Source: an uncultured Geobacter sp.
GTDB lineage: Bacteria; Desulfobacterota; Desulfuromonadia; Geobacterales; DSM-12255
Direction: 5' to 3'
DNA length: 64,000 bases
NCBI GenBank assembly: GCA_937860145.1
Contig: CALMBF010000116.1
Location: 1-64,000, forward strand
Shown here: positions 230-13,067 of the stretch, piece after piece
How positions within the stretch are numbered: position 1 is the first letter of the stretch
Layout of the letters: the number at the start of each line of letters is the position of its first letter
Program-made: the position numbers and the translations under genes
Notes under the pieces: generated by a model
Databases searched by the model: none
What the model was told of the DNA's origin: nothing
The model's input: only the letters and a program-made list of their open reading frames with translations

Positions 230-1534
230 TCAGGGCACTTTCCTTCCGGAGCGTAGTTCCAAATCCTGATGCACTATGTCTCCTAGTGCTGCATCAAGGT
301 ATTCTTTTCGACAATCAACACCATCAATGGCTCCAGTACGCAGACGGCGGAGAAATCTACAGCCGCCGAAACATAAGGGGAGATAGGAGCAGTCGAGGCA
401 TTCGTCCGTTTTCCATACGTCCATATTGTGGGATTCGCTATAGTCATGAATCCCATCGAGCAGTGTGCCGATGCGCATATCATCCCAACCCATGAACGCC
501 GGGCATTTATAGAGTGAACCGTCCCAGTTGATAACTACATCACTGTCGAACTCCACCATGCATGCTGAGATCTTCGGTCTTGGAGTGTTGAAACCGCGCA
601 GAAGGGTTTCGCGACGGAGGAAGAGACTTGCTTCGATCAGCCATGGTTCGTTGGGAGAGGCACAGCCGATGGAAAAATCTTTCAAACCGGCTTCGCCGGT
701 GTTTGGCATGACCGGTGAAAAGGTAACCATGCCGAGACGCTCCGGCGTGAGATCATGTTCAATAAGAATATCGAGTAATTCGGGGAAACGTCGGTAATTC
801 TCTCTCGTATAGTTCCCCCCTAGCTGAACATTGACCGTGTCGCAAATCAAACCCATGTTTTCCAGGATACGTTCGAAACTCCCTGTGCCCGAGGTAAACG
901 GCCGCTGACTGTTATGCACGTCTGGTGGGCCGTCCAGGGTGAAGCGGGTGCTCTGTAACCCCATTCTCTTCAGTTCTGCTGAGAGTTCGCGTGAGAGCAG
1001 GGTGCCGTTGGTAACCAGGTTGAAGGAGAAATTCCGTCCATAGAGTGACGCGTCCTCGCCGATTTTTGTGGCAATGTGCCGCAGTATGGGTAAGGAGAGG
1101 AGCGCTTCCCCTCCGTAAAAATCGAGAATAACGTCTCTCCCTTTAGCCAGGCGCTCAGTCCGGATGTGGGCAATCAGGTGGTCAGCAGTATCGAGAGTCA
1201 TGTAACGTTTGCCGCGGAAATGCTCCTCGTAGCAGTAGACGCATGCAAGATTACAGTCCAGGTTAAGGGTCACCAGCGCGGTAAAGGGGCGGCACTGACT
1301 GTTCAATTGATCGAAGAGGGTTCGTAGTTCCTCGCGCTCGGCATCTGTATCGTGCACCAGAATCCCGAGGCGGGTGAGGGCCGCCTCTTCCTCCCGTGTA
1401 AGTCTCCCCTCCCGGGCATCGTCTAGTACTTCACGGGGGACCCGTACCGCTGCCCCACGGGATGTGGAATAGAGAAGGAGCGACTCTGGCGATTGTGGAG
1501 ATGGATATATTTTCAGATAGTTGGAAAGTTCCAT
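230..1534 (-). CDS. Radical SAM/SPASM peptide maturase (geopeptide maturase type)
   Basis: This 434-residue protein has the radical SAM cluster motif CNLACVYC (Cys94, Cys98, Cys101), which binds the 4Fe-4S cluster that cleaves S-adenosylmethionine. The C-terminal third has the cysteine pattern of a SPASM domain (a Cys before DGSLYKC, then CLDCSYLPLCFGGC and a final Cys), for auxiliary iron-sulphur clusters. This architecture is typical of enzymes that modify ribosomally made peptides (AlbA/PqqE/anSME-like). The first ~80 residues resemble a short peptide-recognition or PqqD-like segment, but this is weak. The gene lies 58 bases downstream of a 31-residue Cys-containing peptide gene in the same direction, which is its likely substrate. 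I recall a Geobacter 'geopeptide maturase' family with this arrangement; the assignment is from memory. The start at 1534 gives a normal N-terminus. Confidence 0.85.
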   Translation of the reverse strand: MELSNYLKIYPSPQSPESLLLYSTSRGAAVRVPREVLDDAREGRLTREEEAALTRLGILVHDTDAEREELRTLFDQLNSQCRPFTALVTLNLDCNLACVYCYEEHFRGKRYMTLDTADHLIAHIRTERLAKGRDVILDFYGGEALLSLPILRHIATKIGEDASLYGRNFSFNLVTNGTLLSRELSAELKRMGLQSTRFTLDGPPDVHNSQRPFTSGTGSFERILENMGLICDTVNVQLGGNYTRENYRRFPELLDILIEHDLTPERLGMVTFSPVMPNTGEAGLKDFSIGCASPNEPWLIEASLFLRRETLLRGFNTPRPKISACMVEFDSDVVINWDGSLYKCPAFMGWDDMRIGTLLDGIHDYSESHNMDVWKTDECLDCSYLPLCFGGCRFLRRLRTGAIDGVDCRKEYLDAALGDIVHQDLELRSGRKVP

Positions 1535-1554: not shown

Positions 1555-1582
1555 ATGGCGGGGGAGGGAGGTCCCCCGCCAT
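1555..1582 (-). promoter_or_regulatory. Perfect 10-bp G/C hairpin between peptide and maturase genes
   Basis: ATGGCGGGGG (1555-1564) and CCCCCGCCAT (1573-1582) pair perfectly around an 8-base loop. It sits in the short spacer between the peptide stop codon and the maturase start. There is no U-tract on the minus strand after it, so it is not a clean intrinsic terminator. It is more likely an mRNA-stabilising or attenuating hairpin that lets the peptide be made in excess over the enzyme, as in many RiPP operons. That role is inference. Confidence 0.6.
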
Positions 1583-1592
1583 TGTTTTGCTT

Positions 1593-1688
1593 CTATCGAA
1601 TCATAACAACAGTTACCCAACAACAACTGTAGGATGGTCCCACGAGTTGCGGCCCAACACCTTCTTCCAGAATTTCCAGCCTGTTCAT
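1593..1688 (-). CDS. Small precursor peptide, probable geopeptide-type RiPP substrate
   Basis: This 31-residue ORF begins with MNRLEILEEG, has a central GPS-Y segment and ends in a core with SCCWVTVVMIR. It has a good ribosome binding site (AGGAGAG at 1694-1700, five bases before the ATG). It is followed by a strong hairpin and then a radical SAM/SPASM gene in the same direction. Small size, a charged leader-like N-terminus, a Cys-Cys-Trp core and maturase adjacency are the usual signs of a radical-SAM-modified peptide. There is no double-Gly cleavage site and no obvious signal peptide, so export is not explained. No dedicated protease or exporter is visible next to it within the window; the left neighbour is cut off. 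The specific name 'geopeptide' is by recall. Confidence 0.75.
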   Translation of the reverse strand: MNRLEILEEGVGPQLVGPSYSCCWVTVVMIR

Positions 1689-1774
1689 GCTTTCTCTCCT
1701 TTCTGTTGTTATACCTGCCCGAATCATGGACATTAGGGCACGGTTTCTGCTATATGAGTTACTCCGAGTTCAAT

Positions 1775-3613
1775 ATGACGAGATCATCTTTCATTCATAG
1801 ACTTATACTCCAAATAATTTTCATCCTGTTATGTTTTTCTTCCCCACTGATGGGGATGCCGCAGGATGAAGCTTTGCTTCTTTATGCTACGGGAGAGGAG
1901 GTGAGCGTTACTGCTAGCCGGGGACCTAAACCTCTGTCCCGAAGCGCAGAAAACATCTCTATCATCTCTTCCGTTGAGATTGACGCCCTCCATGCCCATT
2001 CTCTTGCAGATGTTCTGGCGACTGTTCCTGGCGTGCAGATAGAGTCGTTGCGCACCCCAGGAAGTCATGCGTTTCTGCGTCTACAGGGATCTGCCTTCGG
2101 TCACGTGCAAGTTTTGGTGGATAACGTCCCCCTTAATACTCTGGGTGACAATTTTGCCGATATCGGCCTGATTCCGGCCCGGATCATCGAGCGGATCGAG
2201 ATAGTCAAGGGCGCAGCCTCTTCTTCGTGGGGGCAGGCCCTCGGAGGCGTCATCAATGTCATTACCAAGGCTCCGGAAGATTCGGAACGTCTGGCACAGG
2301 GGAGTATTACCGCAACAATAGGTGAGAGAGGTACGCGGGATACGGGGGCCGAGCTGGTTGGTACTACCAACAGGTTTGGTTATTATCTTTCCGGCGGCTA
2401 CCTCACATCGTCAGGATTGTTGTCCAATAACCAGTCTCATATAAGCAACGGCTATGCCAAATTTGTTTACGATCTTCCCTGGCAGGGACAGCTAACGGGC
2501 ATTTTCGCCAACTTTTGGGGTCAGCGTGGGGACTTTGCTTATTCTGCATTGGATATGCAGGAGAATAGTCTACCTCTCACGACCTTGCGCAGTTTGACAC
2601 TTCGTCAGCCTCTGAGTGAACGGCTAGAGGTGGAGGTGAACGGCCGCTATTCTGAGAAAAAGTATGACATTTTCATCAGAACCATTCAGGATGCAATTTT
2701 TCTTCAACGAGCACTTTCGAATGAATCCACTTTAGGACTTTCCACAAATCTTCTTTGGCGGGGCACAACGAATCTTCTGGCTGCCGGGGTGGAGTACGAG
2801 AAGGTTCATCTTAAACAGAGTGATTCTCTCATGAATGTAGACACTCTGGATCGCGACGACGACCGGTGGGGATTTTACCTGAACGACACCCTTTCCTTTG
2901 GAACGTTGGCGCTATCACCCGGACTCCGTTATGACCTGACCGGTAATGGAGACAACCAGTTCAGTCCCTCCCTTGGAGTTACCTGGCAGGTGTCGGACAA
3001 TAATCTGCTGCGTGCCTATACGGCCCGAGGTTACAGCCTGCCATCCCTCCTGCGCAACCTCTCTGCAGAAAAGGTCTGGACTTCCCAGGTCGGTTTCGAA
3101 AGCAGTGCGATAACAAACCTCTGGCTTAAGGGGACCCTGTTTCGTAACCAGACCTGGGACATCGTCACGTATGATTCAATTACCCGCGAGCAGAGGCTGG
3201 AGCAACAGGTAAAGCAGGGGGGGGAGCTGGAACTGCGCACAACCCCTTGGCATGATCTTTCCTTTACCAGTGGCTATACCTATATGGATGCCCGCAGGAG
3301 CGGTGATCATGCGAGAGTCCCTGATGTCCCTGCGCAGACGGTGCAGCTTGGACTCCGTTATGACGATCTGAAGTATCTGCAAAGCGTTCTTACCGGCAGG
3401 TATATCTGGTGGAATGCGGCTTCGAACCATTCCGGCCAATACAACTCAATGGTCTGGGACCTGCATCTGACAGCAACCCCTTTCGGACGCAGTGACAACT
3501 CTGCTGAATTCTATCTATCCATCCGTAACCTTTTCGACGGTTCCCAGTATCTGGACGAGGCTTTCCGCAATGCCGGTCGTTGGGCTGAGGTTGGCGTGAG
3601 GTTGCGGTTTTGA
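1775..3613 (+). CDS. TonB-dependent outer membrane receptor
   Basis: Outer-membrane gated channel for uptake of a scarce ligand (siderophore, cobamide, haem or similar), energised by TonB. From the ATG at 1775 the protein starts with a signal peptide (MTRSSF then a hydrophobic run ending LMG), followed by a TonB-box-like EEVSVTA, a plug domain (PGVQIESLR, VLVDNVPLN, IERIEIVKG, GGVINVITK) and a long beta-barrel ending in aromatic VRLRF. An in-frame ATG at 1754 is an alternative start. No further-upstream start is likely because that sequence overlaps the divergent peptide promoter. It is divergent from the peptide/maturase pair with about 86 bases between start codons, so the two may be co-regulated. 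The 3' end overlaps the next gene (TGATG). The substrate cannot be told from sequence; the plug is BtuB/siderophore-receptor-like. Confidence 0.85.
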   Translation: MTRSSFIHRLILQIIFILLCFSSPLMGMPQDEALLLYATGEEVSVTASRGPKPLSRSAENISIISSVEIDALHAHSLADVLATVPGVQIESLRTPGSHAFLRLQGSAFGHVQVLVDNVPLNTLGDNFADIGLIPARIIERIEIVKGAASSSWGQALGGVINVITKAPEDSERLAQGSITATIGERGTRDTGAELVGTTNRFGYYLSGGYLTSSGLLSNNQSHISNGYAKFVYDLPWQGQLTGIFANFWGQRGDFAYSALDMQENSLPLTTLRSLTLRQPLSERLEVEVNGRYSEKKYDIFIRTIQDAIFLQRALSNESTLGLSTNLLWRGTTNLLAAGVEYEKVHLKQSDSLMNVDTLDRDDDRWGFYLNDTLSFGTLALSPGLRYDLTGNGDNQFSPSLGVTWQVSDNNLLRAYTARGYSLPSLLRNLSAEKVWTSQVGFESSAITNLWLKGTLFRNQTWDIVTYDSITREQRLEQQVKQGGELELRTTPWHDLSFTSGYTYMDARRSGDHARVPDVPAQTVQLGLRYDDLKYLQSVLTGRYIWWNAASNHSGQYNSMVWDLHLTATPFGRSDNSAEFYLSIRNLFDGSQYLDEAFRNAGRWAEVGVRLRF

Positions 3614-4488
3614 TGCGATTGGGACTCCTGCTTGCATTCTGCGGCCTCTTGTTCCCCTCGGGCGGACTGGCGTATGACCTCCTGGTCGTGCAGAGCCAGC
3701 GTTCACCGGTGTATGACGAGATCATGAGGGGGGTCCGGTCTGTTGCGCCCTATTCCCACCGGGTGATTGCACTGAACGAGTATAGCGAAGTCGACCTGAA
3801 GCGGATCGTCCGGGAAGAGAACCCCCTTGCCATTCTTGCCCTTGGTGACAATGCCCTTGTGGCAGCCAAAAAGGTGAAGCAGGTACCGGTAGTTTCTCTC
3901 ATGGCGCTCGGCTACAGGGCTGGCATGGGTGGACATCCTGCCCTGACAGGGGTTGAAGTACAGATTCCCCCGGAACGTTATCTGGCCGTCCTCAGAGCCA
4001 TAAAAGCCCACAGGGTCGGCATCATTGCCAATGTATCCCGTAATGCCGGTTATCTCAAACTGGCACAGAAGATCGCGAACCGCAACGGAATTGAGCTGAT
4101 ACTCAGGGATGTGAAGTCTCCGAAGGATGTTTCCGCCCAGCTTGATTCACTTGCCGGAAACGTGGATGCACTCTGGATGCTTCCCGATACGTCTATTGCG
4201 ACCGGCGAGGCAGCCGATGCCTTTTTTCTCTTCTCTGCCAGTCGCCGTATCCCGGTACTTTCGTTTTCCTCCAACTATCTGGCTTCGGGTGCAGCCATAA
4301 TAATAGAAATGGATCGGTTCGACCTTGGCAGGCAGGGGGGGGAAATGGTCGAACAGATCCTGGAAGGAAATGACAGTACCGCCTTTGTTTCAGCGTATCC
4401 GCGTAAATCCCACCTTAAAACCAATACCTCAATTCTCCGCAGACTCGGTATTCCTCTCGAGCTGTCGATTTTCAAAAATGGTAATTAG
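3613..4488 (+). CDS. Periplasmic ABC-type substrate-binding protein (PF04392-like)
   Basis: About 291 residues with a signal peptide (MRLGLLLAFCGLLFPSGGLAYD). The fold resembles the TrpX/YtfQ-like 'ABC transporter substrate-binding' family: an N-terminal lobe (LLVVQSQRSPVYDEIMRG), ILALGDNA, a hinge region RVGIIANVSRN, and a C-terminal lobe VDALWMLPDTSIA. The start codon overlaps the receptor stop (TGATG), indicating translational coupling. No permease or ATPase gene lies nearby. The next gene, three bases on, is a sensor kinase. The protein is therefore more likely a periplasmic ligand sensor feeding that kinase, or a periplasmic carrier for the TonB ligand, than part of a complete importer. 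Which of these is right is inference. Confidence 0.75.
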   Translation: MRLGLLLAFCGLLFPSGGLAYDLLVVQSQRSPVYDEIMRGVRSVAPYSHRVIALNEYSEVDLKRIVREENPLAILALGDNALVAAKKVKQVPVVSLMALGYRAGMGGHPALTGVEVQIPPERYLAVLRAIKAHRVGIIANVSRNAGYLKLAQKIANRNGIELILRDVKSPKDVSAQLDSLAGNVDALWMLPDTSIATGEAADAFFLFSASRRIPVLSFSSNYLASGAAIIIEMDRFDLGRQGGEMVEQILEGNDSTAFVSAYPRKSHLKTNTSILRRLGIPLELSIFKNGN

Positions 4489-4491
4489 TCC

Positions 4492-6069
4492 ATGGAATTG
4501 AGCAGTAGGGCAAGTCGCTTCCAAAGAAGTTTTCGCAGTAGATTATTCCTGATATTTACCTGCTTTACCTTTGCCATATCCATTCTGTTCGTCATGCTTT
4601 ACATCAAGGCAGAGATCAGAAATTACCATGAGCGATCCAGCGAACGGGCACAACTTCTTGCTTCGCAGCTTGCTGTGGCCATCAGACTGCCACTTTATGC
4701 TGAAAATTCAACGGAACTCGTACGTCAGGCCAACAATCTTCTCGCTACACCGAAGGTAAAACGTATTATTATATACGGCAGCAATAACCGGGTACTGGTC
4801 GATCAGAAAACAGATGCCGTTGTTAATGATGCTGACCTGGCCATGTCGACCGTCCAGGTTACATCGGCGCCGGCCAGTCCTTCTGTGGAGTCGGCCATCA
4901 GCGGCGTCTCCCCATTTGTCGGATTGCCACTCGGAACAGTAACGGTTTATATCGATTCCAGTGATTTGAAAGAATCGATCATATCTGCCATTCTCGGTAG
5001 TGCCGCAATAGCTTTTCTCTTCTGGATTGCCGTACTCCTTGCCTGTTATCCTGTCTTAAAAAAAGTCACCAATTCTTTTGGCATTCTCACTAACGGCCTT
5101 ACACGTATGAAGGACGGTGATTTTTCCATTATTCTTGAAATTGACGAGGACACCGAGGCGGGCAGAGCCGCTCAGGCTGTCAACAGGTTGTCATCGATGT
5201 TGAGAGAAAGGGATAGGGAAAATCTCAGGTTGCAGGAAGAGCTTGTCAACTCCATGCGTCTTGAGGTGCAGGAGGAGAAGCGCCGGATCATGGCCAAGCT
5301 GATTCAGACCAACAGGATGACCTCTCTTGGTCTCCTCATCTCCAGTATGGCTCACAACATCAATACCCCTAATGGTGCCATCAAACTCGCGGCCCAGCAT
5401 TTGGACAGGTCCTGGAAGGATGCCTTGCCGATTCTGGAGCAGGTAACGAAAGAAGAGGGTGAGTTCACCTTGGCAGGGTTGCCTTTCGGGGTGGCCCGGG
5501 AAGAAATACTGGGGGCAAACGCTTCCGTGCTCAGTAATGCAGACAAAGTTGAACGGGTCATCAAGGATCTGCGGTCTTATAATGTTGGTGAAAAGAATGA
5601 ATTTTGTCCAGGAGTGTCAGTCAACCATGTTGTCACTGAGGCGTTGACAGTCATACGTGCTCACGGTCGACAGGGTGATGTCAGCATTCAGACTGAATTA
5701 GCACCTGACATTCCGAAGATTATGGGGAACAAGTATCAACTGGAGCAGGTTGTGGTCAACCTGTTGATGAACGCCATGCAAGCTACTATAAGTCAAAACG
5801 GTGTCGTGAAAGTGCATACTGATTACATAACTACCGATAAAATCGTCAGAATCGTCGTTAAAGACCAGGGTATTGGGATATCTCCCGAGGTACGCAAGCA
5901 TCTGTTTGAAGCATTTTTCTCCACGAGAATCGCAAGCGGAGGGAGTGGTCTCGGTTTATACATTTCTAAATTCATCGTTGCCGAGCACAACGGCAGTCTT
6001 ACACTCGAGTCTGATCAGGTTAATGGCACTGTAGCCACCGTCAATCTTCCTCTCAACCCGTCTACGTGA
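4492..6069 (+). CDS. Membrane sensor histidine kinase
   Basis: A 525-residue kinase. It has a transmembrane helix near residues 18-40, a periplasmic region of about 120 residues, a second helix near 165-190, a HAMP-like stretch, a coiled-coil linker, a dimerisation/phosphoacceptor segment with His near residue 288 in SSMAHNINTPNGAI, and a HATPase domain with N box (QVVVNLLMNAMQA), G1 (VKDQGIGI), F box and G2 (SGGSGLGLYIS). The phosphoacceptor context is NINTPN rather than the usual ELNNPL, resembling the NtrB/ZraS-like kinases that partner sigma-54 regulators. It follows the binding-protein gene by three bases. The convergent NtrC-type regulator overlaps its 3' end by 8 bases, so the two form a likely two-component pair despite opposite strands. 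Confidence 0.88.
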   Translation: MELSSRASRFQRSFRSRLFLIFTCFTFAISILFVMLYIKAEIRNYHERSSERAQLLASQLAVAIRLPLYAENSTELVRQANNLLATPKVKRIIIYGSNNRVLVDQKTDAVVNDADLAMSTVQVTSAPASPSVESAISGVSPFVGLPLGTVTVYIDSSDLKESIISAILGSAAIAFLFWIAVLLACYPVLKKVTNSFGILTNGLTRMKDGDFSIILEIDEDTEAGRAAQAVNRLSSMLRERDRENLRLQEELVNSMRLEVQEEKRRIMAKLIQTNRMTSLGLLISSMAHNINTPNGAIKLAAQHLDRSWKDALPILEQVTKEEGEFTLAGLPFGVAREEILGANASVLSNADKVERVIKDLRSYNVGEKNEFCPGVSVNHVVTEALTVIRAHGRQGDVSIQTELAPDIPKIMGNKYQLEQVVVNLLMNAMQATISQNGVVKVHTDYITTDKIVRIVVKDQGIGISPEVRKHLFEAFFSTRIASGGSGLGLYISKFIVAEHNGSLTLESDQVNGTVATVNLPLNPST

Positions 6070-7522
6070 CAACAGTTTCTGCTTTTCCACCATCGTTATT
6101 TTCGGCGGCAAGCTGCTCCATTCTTTTCTGCAACGTTGGTCGGCTGATGCCAAGCATCTTCGCTGCCATGCTTCTGTTCCCTTCAGCCAGAATCATTGCC
6201 TCTTGTACCAGGAGGGTTTCAACTTCATCCACAGTCGGGAACGTATGGAAAATACCGTTGAGTGAAAACTGGCTGTTACCAATTTTCCTGATGATTTGAT
6301 TGGGGAGGACGGTTCCCGGCATCAAGCCGGGGAAATCGGACAACGTGAGGGTTCCTGTACGGTTATGCATGACCGCATGATGTATCTTGTTAATCATTTC
6401 CCGCACATTACCGGGGAAATCGTAAGAAATGAGCGCCTGACGAGCCTCACGGGATAGTTCCGGCTGTTTTATGGTCAGGTTTGCGGCCGTAATTTCTATG
6501 AAATGTTCCACAAGGGGCAGGATATCCTCTCGCCGTTCCCGGAGTGGGGGGATAGCAAGTGTCTGGGCGCTGATCCTGTAATAGAGGTCACTCCTGAAGG
6601 TTCCCGCACTCATCATGGCATGGAAATTAGCATTCGAGGCCGCTACGATACGGGCGTCGCTTTTGTGGAGGACATCGGAGCCGAGTCGGTAGTATTCACC
6701 CTGCTGCAGCAGACGCAACAGCTTAATCTGGGATGCATTACTGAGGTCGCCTATTTCGTCGAGGAAAAGGGTTCCGCCCTTAGCTTGTTCGATCAGGCCT
6801 TCACGGCTTTCGTTGGCACCCGTGTATGCGCCTTTTTTGTGACCAAAAAGGGTGTCAGCGAACATGGCGTCATCCAGTCCAGCCACGTTAACGGTTACCA
6901 TCCTGCCTTTCAATCCACTGCAGCGGTGAAGGGCATTGGCTATAAGTTCCTTGCCGACTCCGGTTTCACCAGTAATCAGGACCGGTTGCTTTGAACATGC
7001 TAGAGTTTCAATTACCTTGAAAATGGCCTGCATTTTTTCGCAACACGTAATAATGTCGCAAAAATGTTGTGGATTAGACAGGGGTTCTCCCAGTAAATAA
7101 TCTGTGAGTTGGCGATTTCTTGCAATGAGCTCGCTGCTATTGCAAGCGTTTTGTACAACCGATACAAGTTTGGTTGTATCCACAGGCTTGGTGATATAAT
7201 CATATGCCCCTTGCTTGATACAGCTTACCGCGTTTTCCAGGTCGCTCACTCCGGTTATTACGATTACCGGTATGTGGGGATACTGGCGGGTCAATTCCGG
7301 CAGGAGGTCTGCACCAGAAATGTTCGGCATGACCCAGTCGAGAATGATTGTTGTGAACGAGTTATCTGCAAGAGCAGGCAGGACTGAGGCGCTATCCTGA
7401 AGCGTGGTGATATTTCTGATATTATGAGCGAGAAGTGCTCTTCGGGTGCCGTCAAGAAATGTTGCATCATCATCTACTATCAGGATTGAGTGCTCTCTTT
7501 CTAACTTTGGGGTAGTGGGCAT
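6062..7522 (-). CDS. Sigma-54-dependent response regulator (NtrC family)
   Basis: A 486-residue transcription activator. The receiver domain has the acidic pocket VDDDA and phosphoacceptor Asp62 (IILDWVMP), with a switch Thr in VITGV and Lys in TKPVD. The AAA+ domain has Walker A GETGVGKE, the sigma-54 contact loop GAYTGA (a Phe-to-Tyr form of GAFTGA), Walker B GGTLFLDEIG and the R-finger region FRSDLYYR. The C-terminus has a Fis-type helix-turn-helix (EGNRSMAAKMLGISRPTLQKRM). It would drive transcription from -24/-12 promoters in response to the adjacent kinase. Targets could include the divergent receptor/peptide region, but I see no convincing -24/-12 site there. It is transcribed toward the kinase gene and overlaps its end by 8 bases. 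Confidence 0.92.
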   Translation of the reverse strand: MPTTPKLEREHSILIVDDDATFLDGTRRALLAHNIRNITTLQDSASVLPALADNSFTTIILDWVMPNISGADLLPELTRQYPHIPVIVITGVSDLENAVSCIKQGAYDYITKPVDTTKLVSVVQNACNSSELIARNRQLTDYLLGEPLSNPQHFCDIITCCEKMQAIFKVIETLACSKQPVLITGETGVGKELIANALHRCSGLKGRMVTVNVAGLDDAMFADTLFGHKKGAYTGANESREGLIEQAKGGTLFLDEIGDLSNASQIKLLRLLQQGEYYRLGSDVLHKSDARIVAASNANFHAMMSAGTFRSDLYYRISAQTLAIPPLRERREDILPLVEHFIEITAANLTIKQPELSREARQALISYDFPGNVREMINKIHHAVMHNRTGTLTLSDFPGLMPGTVLPNQIIRKIGNSQFSLNGIFHTFPTVDEVETLLVQEAMILAEGNRSMAAKMLGISRPTLQKRMEQLAAENNDGGKAETVVT

Positions 7523-8939: not shown

Positions 8940-9983
8940 TTGAAAAAAATTACATTTCTTGTATTGTTATCCACTTTTCTGTTAACGGCATGCACCAAGC
9001 CGCATACCAACCCTCTGTTTTTCAATGATCCACATTTAAGTGATGTATGGCCGCCTCCTCCAGAAAAACCAAGAATCAAATTGATCAAGGTATTCAAGGG
9101 AGCTGAAGAGTTTCTTGCTCCTAAGGGGCGCATTCAATCCTTTTTCGAAGCTTTCACGGGGGAGCATGGTCAGCCGTTGGAATTTATGGCTCCGGCGGGT
9201 ATTGCTACTGACGGTGAACGATTCATATATGTTGCTGACCCTTCTTCACGGTTGGTGCATCGTTTTGATCTCCAAGAGAACGAGATTGTCTATCTGACCC
9301 ACTCGGGTACAGAACCCTTGGCGAGTCCGGTTGGCGTGGCATTGGACAGCGCCGGGAACTGTTACGTCACAGATTCAGTCAAGGCCAAAGTGTACAAATT
9401 TAATGTCAATGCCGAATACGTAGGTGCTCTGGGAGAAGGAGTAGTAGATTTCCAGCGGCCTGCCGGAATAGCTGTCGCTAAGAATGACTATAAATATGTC
9501 GTTGATGTGTTAGCCAATAAGGTTTTCGTTTTTGACCAAAAAGACCGTTTCGTTTCCGATTTCCCGAATGAAATGAACGCCCAGAATTTAAATAAACCCG
9601 TTAATATCGCCGTTGATAAAGTTAACAACATTTACATCACCGATGCCTTCAATTTTTCGGTTAAGGTTTTTGATAGTAAAGGCAATCTGTTGAGAGTTAT
9701 AGGAAGTGTCGGTGATGCACCAGGCTCATTTTCAAGGCCGAAAGGTGTCGCCGTAGACAGTGAATCGCATATATATATCGTTGACGCAAATTTTGATAAC
9801 TTCCAGATTTTTGATCAGGCGGGTAGATTGTTATTGTACGTCGGGAGTACCGGTAAGAAGCCCGGTCAGTTTTTCATGCCAAACGGCATTTTTATAGATC
9901 GTGAGGACAGGATCTACGTGTCAGACTCCTATAACCAGAGACTTCAGATATTTCAATACCTTAAGGAGCAAACCATAAAGTAA
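8940..9983 (+). CDS. NHL-repeat lipoprotein
   Basis: A 347-residue secreted lipoprotein starting at a TTG. The signal MKKITFLVLLSTFLLTAC gives a lipobox with the lipidated Cys at 18. From about residue 85 it consists of NHL-type beta-propeller blades, seen as repeated units of the form 'PxGIAxDxxxxxYVxDxxxxxVxxFDxxGxxL' (for example SPVGVALDSAGNCYVTDS, RPAGIAVAKNDYKYVVDV, KPVNIAVDKVNNIYITDA, RPKGVAVDSESHIYIVDA, MPNGIFIDREDRIYVSDS). The N-terminal part has proline-rich PHLSDVWPPPPEKPRI, common to Geobacter NHL lipoproteins. The gene precedes two multihaem cytochrome genes with 1-base and 8-base spacings, so it is likely a structural or scaffold partner of those cytochromes on the outer surface or in the periplasm. 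Confidence 0.88.
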   Translation: MKKITFLVLLSTFLLTACTKPHTNPLFFNDPHLSDVWPPPPEKPRIKLIKVFKGAEEFLAPKGRIQSFFEAFTGEHGQPLEFMAPAGIATDGERFIYVADPSSRLVHRFDLQENEIVYLTHSGTEPLASPVGVALDSAGNCYVTDSVKAKVYKFNVNAEYVGALGEGVVDFQRPAGIAVAKNDYKYVVDVLANKVFVFDQKDRFVSDFPNEMNAQNLNKPVNIAVDKVNNIYITDAFNFSVKVFDSKGNLLRVIGSVGDAPGSFSRPKGVAVDSESHIYIVDANFDNFQIFDQAGRLLLYVGSTGKKPGQFFMPNGIFIDREDRIYVSDSYNQRLQIFQYLKEQTIK

Positions 9984-9984
9984 C

Positions 9985-10752
9985 ATGAGAGTTGCTGCCC
10001 TTAGCATACTGTTAACGATATTGTTCGGAGCACACTTCTCGGAAGGAGCTGGAAAGAAGATATCCGAGAGAGGGAATAAGCATAACTTTTCCTATCAGAA
10101 TACTTCTGCCAACTACCGTGCACTCCCCACCGTAGAAATTCCCGAATATTCCCGGAGCAATCAGATATGTGTCTTCTGTCATACTCCCCATAAATCAAGC
10201 GGGGAGGGGCCACTTTGGAACAGAAAGGCCTCATCGGTGTCGTTCTTTAAGCATTACTCTTCTCCAACCCTGGCGATCGATGATCCGGCAGTAAGAGGTG
10301 CAAGTGAGTACGGCCAGCCGAATGGTTCAACACGACTCTGTCTTAGTTGCCATGATGGTGTTACTGCTCTTGGTGCAGTTTTTGCGACACCAATCGACCC
10401 GTATAATCAGTACCCTATTCACTTTCTCGACGTGAAAACAGGTATCTCAGGCCCTGACGTTCATCTCCCGTATGAGACCTATTCATCTCATCATCCCGTT
10501 TCATTCAAATATAATGCGACTGTCAGGAATATATTGACCAGTCCACCATATAACAAGACCGAGTATTGGTATTCCCCCGCAAATGGTGTCAAATTGGACA
10601 GGTACGAACGGATGCAGTGTACAACCTGCCACGACCCACACCAGGACAAGTCCGATAGTCCCAGTTCGTTGACGCCATTCTGGGTATCTAAAACTTATGC
10701 AGAAGTCTGTCGATCATGCCACAATCTCGTAACTCCTCCACCACTGCCTTAG
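9985..10752 (+). CDS. Tetrahaem c-type cytochrome
   Basis: A 255-residue exported cytochrome. It has a signal peptide (MRVAALSILLTILFGAHFSEG) and four CXXCH haem sites: CVFCH (62-66), CLSCH (119-123), CTTCH (212-216) and CRSCH (242-246). Extra His residues near the sites (TPHK, SHHP, DPHQ) could be distal ligands. The spacing resembles the 'cytochrome c family/doubled CXXCH' proteins of Geobacter. Its likely role is periplasmic or surface electron transfer, but no partner redox enzyme is encoded beside it. It starts one base after the NHL lipoprotein stop and is followed by a second, larger cytochrome gene. Confidence 0.9.
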   Translation: MRVAALSILLTILFGAHFSEGAGKKISERGNKHNFSYQNTSANYRALPTVEIPEYSRSNQICVFCHTPHKSSGEGPLWNRKASSVSFFKHYSSPTLAIDDPAVRGASEYGQPNGSTRLCLSCHDGVTALGAVFATPIDPYNQYPIHFLDVKTGISGPDVHLPYETYSSHHPVSFKYNATVRNILTSPPYNKTEYWYSPANGVKLDRYERMQCTTCHDPHQDKSDSPSSLTPFWVSKTYAEVCRSCHNLVTPPPLP

Positions 10753-10760
10753 GACAGAAT

Positions 10761-11837
10761 ATGAGACTGTTTGCTTGTATACTGCTTTACGCAGGTTCAT
10801 TAATAGTTTTGCCTGCCAACGGGTTTGCTGCATCCCATCTGGATAAATTCAATCTTCCCAGGGAGTGCGCTACATGCCATTACAAGTCCAATCTCAGGGG
10901 CGGGGGAGGGACCGAGGGGTGTATTACCTGTCACGGTAATCCTCAACGACGGGTAGATAACAAGAAGATGCCACCGGGCTCAATTGTCAACAAGTCCGGT
11001 ATGCTCAACATAGAGGCCGAATTCTTCAAAACCTACCGTCATCCCACGTTTGATTCGCCGGGACGCCACCGTTATAGCGAGACTCTTCCTGAGACGGACC
11101 CCAAAGCTCTTCGCCATGCAGATTGTGTTGACTGTCATAATCCCCATTATGTCTCGAAGGAAAACAAGTTTGCCGGTATAAGGGCAAAGCGGGTAGTAAA
11201 CCAACTGACCGACGTAACCAGGGAAACTGATATGTGTTACCGTTGTCATGGTGATTCAGCCAATTTGCCTGGTAAATACACAAATAAACGGATTGAGTTC
11301 CTGCTTACTAATCCTTCATTTCATCCTGTCGAGGGAGAGGGCAGAAACTTGTCGGTCATCAGCCTTGTCCGCCCATACCGGGAGAAAAAGATAGACTCTG
11401 CAGATATTTCCACGATCCTCTGCTCCGACTGTCATGGCAATGACGATGCCAAGGGACCAAAAGGAGTACATGGTTCCCGGAATCAATACATTCTTGTGGA
11501 TAATTACAATACAGCTGATAATATTTTCGAAAGCCCGCAGGCATTTGCCCTATGCTACAGGTGTCACAGCCGCGCGAGCATTCTTGGAAACGAGAGTTTT
11601 CGGTACCACTCGCTTCACATCCAGGGATCGTCCATTCAGAAACTGGGGACCTCCTGTTTTACCTGCCACAATTCACATGGCAGTACTGAGTATAAATACC
11701 TGATCAAGTTTAATCCGTTGGTCGTCTCCCCTAACTCCAAGGGGTTGTTAAAGTACGTTGAAAAGGGGAGTGCCAAATTCAGCGGTGAATGTTACCTGAA
11801 GTGTCATGGGGTTGATCATGATCCTAAATCTTATTGA
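10761..11837 (+). CDS. Octahaem-type c-type cytochrome with one CX3CH site
   Basis: A 358-residue exported cytochrome. The ATG at 10761 follows AGGACAG and gives a clean signal peptide (MRLFACILLYAGSLIVLPANGFAA); an upstream in-frame start inside the previous gene is not used. It has seven CXXCH motifs at about residues 36, 54, 122, 159, 221, 265 and 299, and a last atypical C344-YLK-C348-H with three residues between the cysteines. CX3CH or CX4CH sites are known in some multihaem proteins and may still carry a haem, so the total is seven or eight. Several motifs are followed by xPH or xSH, as in decahaem-like families. It is likely periplasmic or outer-surface electron transfer, encoded with the NHL lipoprotein and tetrahaem protein. 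Confidence 0.88.
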   Translation: MRLFACILLYAGSLIVLPANGFAASHLDKFNLPRECATCHYKSNLRGGGGTEGCITCHGNPQRRVDNKKMPPGSIVNKSGMLNIEAEFFKTYRHPTFDSPGRHRYSETLPETDPKALRHADCVDCHNPHYVSKENKFAGIRAKRVVNQLTDVTRETDMCYRCHGDSANLPGKYTNKRIEFLLTNPSFHPVEGEGRNLSVISLVRPYREKKIDSADISTILCSDCHGNDDAKGPKGVHGSRNQYILVDNYNTADNIFESPQAFALCYRCHSRASILGNESFRYHSLHIQGSSIQKLGTSCFTCHNSHGSTEYKYLIKFNPLVVSPNSKGLLKYVEKGSAKFSGECYLKCHGVDHDPKSY

Positions 11838-11858: not shown

Positions 11859-13067
11859 ATGGCGATATTTTCATGTAAAATAGGGTCCGCTGACGGCAAA
11901 ATAATCGAGAAAGAATTTGAGGCGGTCAGTGCGGACATCCTCAGACAAAGCCTGATTTCTCAGGGTTTTTTTGTCTTTTCCATCAAGAAAAAGCCATTTC
12001 AATTTGTCTGGAATAAAGGCCTCTCTCGGAAAAAAATTGATATAAAAGGCCTGATTACTTTTAATCAGGAACTTCTTGTGCTCATCAAATCCGGCCTGCC
12101 GATTATTCAGTCGCTGGACACGATTCTGGAAAGGATTGATAACGCCAGGTTAGCGGAAATACTTGAGGTTATACGCGACGATATCAAGGGAGGGAGTTCG
12201 TTGTCGGATGCGTTTGAACGTCATCCCAGTGCATTTTCCCATCTTTACATAGCTTCTATACGCGCCGGAGAAAGAACCGGTGACCTGCCACAGACCATCA
12301 GGCGTTATATTACCTTTCTGAAAAAAACTGAAGGATTCAAAAAGAAGGTTGTAACTGCCATGTTTTATCCGGCAATTCTCCTGGTCGTGGCATTCACTGC
12401 CGTGACACTCTTGCTGGTATATGTTGTCCCGACGTTCAGTCAGGTGTATGCTGATGCAGGCTCCAAGCTGCCTGTCCCCACCCTGGTGTTAATCAGCTTT
12501 ACGTCGGTTTTGAAAAAGTATTTTCTCCTTTTTGTCGCGATGATTTTTCTTGGTGGTTATCTTTTTAACAGGTGGGTCGAGACCTCTAGCGGCCGTTATG
12601 CCGTCGATTCCTTCAAGCTTAAAATCCCCGTTGTCGGTGATATTTTCGCTAAGTATTCAATCGTAAGTTTTACCAGAACCCTTGCCACTATTATTGAAAG
12701 CGGTATACCTATAGTTGAATCATTGAAAATGTCTGTAGCAACGCTCAACAACAAGGTTCTTGAATCAAGGATGCTTGCTGCGATCAAGAAGGTCGAAGAA
12801 GGGGTGAGCTTGAGTGTCGCCATAGACGGTGCCCATCTGATGCCTTCACTTGCCCTGCGCATGCTTGGAGTAGGTGAGTCAACTGGCGCACTTGAGGAGA
12901 TGCTGGAGAGTATCTCTGATTATTTCGAGGAGGAACTTGACCAGCGTCTGCATTTGCTGAGCACTGCAATTGAGCCGGCAATCATGATTTTGATGGGAGT
13001 CGTTATCGGAGCTATCATCGTTACCATGTATCTGCCAGTATTTAAAATTGCGGGAACTGTCGGCTGA
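11859..13067 (+). CDS. gspF: Type II secretion/type IV pilus inner-membrane platform protein (GspF/PilC)
   Basis: A 402-residue polytopic protein with two tandem T2SSF domains: a cytosolic N-terminal half (FNQELLVLIKSGLPIIQSL...FERHPSAFSHLYIASIRAGERTGDLP), a transmembrane helix (YPAILLVVAFTAVTLLLVYVV), the second domain (FTRTLATIIESGIPIVESL...MLGVGESTGALEEML) and a final helix (IEPAIMILMGVVIGAIIVTMYLP). It anchors the assembly ATPase and turns its motion into pseudopilus growth. It heads a tightly packed operon with ATPase, PilM/N/O/P-like proteins, secretin and pseudopilins. The set mixes GspE/F-type components with PilMNOP-type alignment proteins and resembles the Geobacter Oxp secretion system for OmpB-like oxidases; that identification is by recall. 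Confidence 0.92.
   Translation: MAIFSCKIGSADGKIIEKEFEAVSADILRQSLISQGFFVFSIKKKPFQFVWNKGLSRKKIDIKGLITFNQELLVLIKSGLPIIQSLDTILERIDNARLAEILEVIRDDIKGGSSLSDAFERHPSAFSHLYIASIRAGERTGDLPQTIRRYITFLKKTEGFKKKVVTAMFYPAILLVVAFTAVTLLLVYVVPTFSQVYADAGSKLPVPTLVLISFTSVLKKYFLLFVAMIFLGGYLFNRWVETSSGRYAVDSFKLKIPVVGDIFAKYSIVSFTRTLATIIESGIPIVESLKMSVATLNNKVLESRMLAAIKKVEEGVSLSVAIDGAHLMPSLALRMLGVGESTGALEEMLESISDYFEEELDQRLHLLSTAIEPAIMILMGVVIGAIIVTMYLPVFKIAGTVG

Follow-up and report, generated by a model that had tools for sequence, protein, structure and literature searches.

Organisation of the locus

The left edge of the window (the whole 64,000-nucleotide stretch of Geobacter DNA that was analysed) is a contig end, and the genes of interest lie next to it. 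On the minus strand, a short peptide gene is followed by a gene for a radical SAM enzyme. Divergent from this pair are genes for a TonB-dependent receptor, a binding protein and a kinase, and a regulator gene faces the others. All of the divergent genes listed in an earlier interpretation of the bare letters (hereafter the sequence-only reading) are present. The features, by position in the window, are as follows.

230..1534, minus strand: geopeptide radical SAM maturase, 434 aa (TIGR04280)
1555..1582, minus strand: intercistronic hairpin, 11 perfect pairs with a loop of 6 (folding)
1593..1688, minus strand: precursor peptide MNRLEILEEGVGPQLVGPSYSCCWVTVVMIR, 31 aa, stop codon included (ORF call)
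1620..1625, minus strand: codons for Cys22-Cys23, the near-invariant core motif (alignment, Cys-Cys columns at least 90%)
1696..1701, minus strand: ribosome-binding site AAGGAG, 7 nt ahead of the ATG (sequence)
1727..1732, plus strand: TGGACA/TGTCCA element common to related divergent promoters (motif counts)
1736..1751, plus strand: sigma-54-like site GGGCACGGTTTCTGCT before the receptor gene (GG-N10-GC spacing)
1775..3613, plus strand: TonB-dependent receptor, divergent (Pfam Plug and TonB_dep_Rec)
3613..4488, plus strand: periplasmic binding protein, PF04392, with no permease partner in the locus (Pfam)
4492..6069, plus strand: sensor histidine kinase (HATPase_c; weak HAMP match)
6062..7522, minus strand: sigma-54-dependent NtrC-type response regulator, facing the others (Response_reg, Sigma54_activat, HTH_8)

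Judged by sequence, the peptide and the maturase are a genuine, unannotated and divergent geopeptide-maturase pair. The sequence-only reading treated the system as one without a name, but NCBIfam already calls it 'geopeptide' (TIGR04280/TIGR04229). It was right about a small open reading frame with a good ribosome site: AAGGAG stands 7 nt before the ATG of the 31-residue frame, and AAGGAGG is one of the most enriched 7-mers 5' of homologous peptides. A longer in-frame version from an ATG at 1733 (46 aa) was rejected because homologues begin at the 31-residue site. Like the NCBIfam geopeptides, the window peptide has its place beside a full-member maturase, the same leader motif (here LEILEEG) and, close to its C-terminal end, a Cys-Cys core; unlike them, it scores only 10.2 bits against TIGR04229, where the cut-off is 30, and is therefore classed as a divergent relative rather than a member of the model family. 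Five peptides of its own clade give no match to that model. In the wide sense of homology to peptides 5' of TIGR04280 maturases, with LxVLEEG and Cys-Cys, it does qualify as a geopeptide-like precursor. When a profile is built from its relatives alone, the peptide comes out first among the 1805 open reading frames of the window (E 6.5e-8), and it is still first when its nearest clade is also left out (E 5.8e-6; next-best frame 0.085). Related peptides are under purifying selection (pN/pS 0.30, with pS 0.315 and pN 0.096, over 16 independent pairs).

The maturase starts 58 nt past the end of the peptide frame, so that a SPASM radical SAM gene does lie directly 3' of it, as had been proposed. 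It matches TIGR04280 with 623.9 bits (cut-off 400) over positions 1-427 of 428, and the SPASM model TIGR04085 with 52.8 bits (cut-off 27). The radical SAM motif CX3CX2C (C94/C98/C101) is conserved in 98-100% of 137 sequences and the SPASM cysteines (C325, C344, C379, C382, C388, C392 and C408) in 99-100%, and an additional Cys291 is kept in nearly all of them. The AF2 model (pLDDT 92.7) predicts an RRE-like N-terminal domain at residues 1-71, whose secondary structure is that of a PqqD-like fold: three strands (7-11, 18-23, 28-33) and three helices (34-42, 47-55, 63-71). The best PDB match by both sequence and fold is CteB (5why/5wgg), then TigE, anSME, SuiB and ChlB. CteB shares the RRE, radical SAM and SPASM arrangement, but its identity to the window maturase is only about 20%, and its SCIFF peptide has six cysteines with other spacing. 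A tree groups the window maturase with those of L178, L110, L124, L167 and L186/187/193 (SH-aLRT 80, a weak grouping that is drawn open). L186, L187 and L193 have a maturase, kinase and regulator near the window type, with neither a receptor nor a recognisable peptide between them.

The spacer between the two genes is strongly structured. The sequence-only reading described a perfect 10-bp stem of G and C; the hairpin is there, but its stem has 11 pairs with A-T at both ends. For the spacer of 58 nt the folding energy is -24.2 kcal/mol (z = -3.9), a stability reached by only 1 of 200 shuffles, and Rfam holds no known RNA that matches the hairpin. Stems of at least 5 pairs occur in 122 of 124 peptide-maturase spacers and of at least 8 pairs in 109, frequently in the form GGGGAGC-loop-GCTCCCC; 113 of the 124 fall within the best 5% of their shuffles. 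Since the minus strand lacks a T-run at the window copy and only 60/124 spacers have at least 4 T in the following 8 bases, we do not claim intrinsic termination as the sole role of the hairpin. Its purpose is likely the differential expression of precursor and enzyme. Given homologous peptides and hairpins at the same place in more than 100 loci, the peptide locus is more than a product of chance.

On the receptor side, the sigma-54-like site recurs at the same place in the related loci L197, L178, L167, L068 and L134. Such sites are found overall on the peptide side of 15 and the receptor side of 7 of 102 loci, with about 3 expected on each; they are thus not general, and the clade of the window locus is the only one to support such a site. 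The candidate site in the window is suggestive only. TGTCCA occurs in 31 of 127 upstream regions against 4.65 expected. Further into the window, at 8940-11837, there is an NHL-repeat-like lipoprotein frame, then two frames for multihaem c-type cytochromes (4 and 7 CXXCH) that adjoin an apparent type II secretion/pilus operon starting at 11859.

The peptide family among relatives

The surroundings of about 150 maturases from the order and the phylum were compared. Among the 158 maturases with an intact 5' end, 132 are preceded by a frame with the leader L-x-V-L-E-E-G and a Cys-Cys pair (strict pattern), the pair lying 6-13 residues, with a mode of 8, before the C-terminal end. About 13 further maturases have a relaxed variant of the peptide, with CTC, CKC or only one Cys, or with a changed leader, which brings the total to about 145 of 158; of the maturases lacking such a peptide, several belong to distant outgroups or stand at the end of a contig. 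Homologous maturases thus do carry a conserved peptide alongside, as the proposal of a RiPP-type precursor and maturase had predicted. The CTC and CKC peptides are at L144, L152, L176 and L195.

What is conserved is the leader LxVLEEG plus Cys-Cys. The Cys-Cys-Trp motif first singled out in the window peptide survives in its cysteines, with columns of at least 90%, and not in its tryptophan, which follows the pair in only 16 of about 140 peptides. As a family motif Cys-Cys-Trp is rejected, Trp being just one option among T, A, W, S, F, I and K for the residue following the pair. The known peptides of the window clade share EEGT-PF..GP...CC, a hydrophobic residue in the tail and a final R.

Geopeptide maturases are found in 103 of 141 genomes of the order and also elsewhere in the phylum; a scan of genome contigs added only distant maturases from other phyla. 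The window genome contains one more maturase, paired with a peptide of its own (L064) and likewise accompanied by receptors, a binding protein, a kinase and a regulator. Other arrangements occur as well. L119 (G050:C1 2263697-2282896) has two maturases, several tandem geopeptide copies and one receptor operon. At L197, a broken maturase (around 8979) has next to it a complete receptor operon and a very similar peptide (MERIDVLEQGSCSFIDIPTYSCCFTAMSLVR), possibly a case of decay from producer to listener.

Linkage to a receptor and sensor

All long open reading frames of 130 loci were clustered with no preselection. The receptor family is present in 120 of these loci, the binding protein in 101, the histidine kinase in 97 and the sigma-54 regulator in 56; the next neighbour family is found in just 18. 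The receptor occurs in 98 of 103 genomes with a maturase vs 10 of 38 without one (Fisher p 2.6e-16, for genomes that are not independent of one another), and 110 of the 150 receptor homologues listed have a maturase within 6.5 kb. The receptor consists of Plug and barrel only, lacking an N-terminal signalling domain, and the accompanying regulators, an NtrC-type protein and a histidine kinase, are no sigma/anti-sigma pair, so that signalling of the FecIR type does not apply. The binding protein model (pLDDT 93.4) has a TrpX-like fold closest to CD0873 and the L-Trp-bound 3lft; its fold matches point to amino-acid binders rather than peptide binders, although the lack of a peptide-binding protein among the 50 entries listed rules nothing out. 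XylFII-LytS (5xsd), also among the matches, similarly places a permease-less periplasmic binding protein beside a kinase, an analogy of arrangement only.

A receptor of this kind could serve a metallophore: a secreted, modified Cys-Cys peptide would bind copper, iron or another metal, the TonB receptor would retrieve it, and the two-component system would sense the loaded peptide. Methanobactin, which is re-internalised by a TonB-dependent transporter (PMC9601215), provides the parallel of a small two-Cys precursor with a cognate receptor (PMC3621798, PMC9601215), and the nearest solved relatives of the window receptor are BtuB and the colicin I and enterobactin receptors. Methanobactin maturation, however, uses MbnB/MbnC where the window locus has a radical SAM enzyme; none of the six locus proteins matches either of these, and no other neighbour is conserved. 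Nor do the 130 loci share a metal-binding partner, a Fur-type regulator or an exporter, and a TrpX-like binding protein is atypical of metal uptake. The tail after the cysteines varies widely, with Cys-Cys as the sole conserved ligand. We regard a metallophore as unlikely.

The peptide's own variation bears on whether the receptor belongs with it at all. The leader co-varies mainly with the maturase; for the tail after Cys-Cys, co-variation with the receptor is no weaker than with the maturase. In partial Mantel tests over 72 loci, which give moderate correlations and include no control for the species tree, the leader-maturase value was 0.36 and the leader-receptor value 0.14, and the tail gave 0.31 with the receptor given the maturase and 0.28 with the maturase, an excess that is not significant by itself. 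The pattern survives thinning by similarity, the interaction falling below zero in 0.25% of subsamples. Over 62 loci, the binding protein gave 0.10 (p 0.011) with the tail vs -0.10 with the leader. Such a pattern would be expected with a leader recognised by the enzyme and a core recognised by the receptor.

It could nevertheless be imagined that two unrelated modules, a cytoplasmic peptide modification and a receptor-sensor for some other nutrient, have been co-inherited by chance or through shared regulation. Kinases and regulators of these kinds come from large families, and 36 of the 150 listed receptor homologues, some of them second copies within a single large genus, are near neither a maturase nor a geopeptide. 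The receptor family is thus not exclusive to a geopeptide ligand, and some relatives may serve other ligands or listen to the peptides of others. The synteny, however, spans four families of the order, with looser versions in the phylum; tail and receptor co-vary; and peptides that lack a maturase retain the receptor. Four of the 150 listed receptors are beside a peptide with no maturase match nearby, and orphan peptides next to a receptor, with no maturase in cis, are found at L227 and L226. In G070 the contig continues past the orphan peptide and has no maturase in cis; in G119 it ends about 430 nt past the peptide, and no maturase start is seen on that stretch. The orphan at L227 (644-745) is a Cys-Ile-Cys geopeptide (MREEHDDLLVLEEGSDTEMPMTCICTTSVTKIK) divergent from its TonB receptor. 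Chance association appears improbable, and the functional link to the receptor, first offered as speculation, is now backed by synteny in more than 100 loci and by the co-variation of tail and receptor.

It is very doubtful that the peptide is a toxin or bacteriocin, its receptor used against kin or for the producer's own clearance: sactipeptides and similar radical SAM RiPPs are often antimicrobial (PMC8326336) and the tails diversify strongly, but clustering of the 130 loci yielded no conserved immunity gene, dedicated exporter or protease, and a regulator pair with a divergent receptor is unlike the usual bacteriocin set.

A possible loop of peptide and receptor

We favor, with a probability of about 0.6, the reading that the locus both produces a ribosomal peptide and perceives the product. 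The product is most likely a RiPP with a radical-modified Cys-Cys core, which its own receptor would recognise and the two-component system would report; the adjoining radical enzyme is very probably the one that modifies the 31-residue peptide. The RRE-like domain would bind the leader, and a 5'-deoxyadenosyl radical would install a crosslink at one or both cysteines, perhaps a thioether like those made by CteB. The hairpin would lower read-through and so provide more precursor than enzyme, and housekeeping enzymes would release the core. The TonB receptor would then re-import the core, the periplasmic protein would bind it and report to the kinase, and the sigma-54 regulator would govern how strongly the receptor operon is expressed. 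The product could plausibly control its own receptor in such a loop, and may be either a signal in itself or a carrier of metal or other cargo. Two observations count against the reading: the loci share neither an exporter nor a protease, and the binding protein is more like amino-acid binders than peptide binders. Tentatively, the geopeptides of Geobacter-type bacteria may be self-made signals, re-imported through TonB, read out by the binding protein and kinase and switching a sigma-54 regulon; genomes with only the receptor would then listen without producing. We put this forward as possible rather than probable.

A comparable return of the product to the cell is suspected for lasso peptide clusters of the isopeptidase type (PMC9266682), in which RiPP genes likewise occur together with a regulator pair and a gene for a TonB-dependent transporter. 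These differ in peptide class and enzymes; the window locus has no isopeptidase, and where the lasso clusters use a sigma/anti-sigma pair it has a binding protein, a kinase and a sigma-54 regulator. A survey of RiPPs in anaerobes gives only lasso clusters for Geobacter and Pelobacter. The literature searched contained no mention of 'geopeptide', TIGR04229 or TIGR04280, and no paper joining Geobacter with radical SAM, RiPP and TonB. The geopeptide kind is already known to NCBIfam; the divergent subfamily and the linkage to a receptor and sensor appear undescribed in that literature.

Geopeptides are thus widespread, yet no published product or role was found in the literature searched, and the annotation model now in use does not detect the divergent subfamily. 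The receptor, binding protein, kinase and regulator conserved alongside them point to self-sensing or re-uptake as a role that can be tested, in bacteria that matter for metal reduction and extracellular electron transfer.
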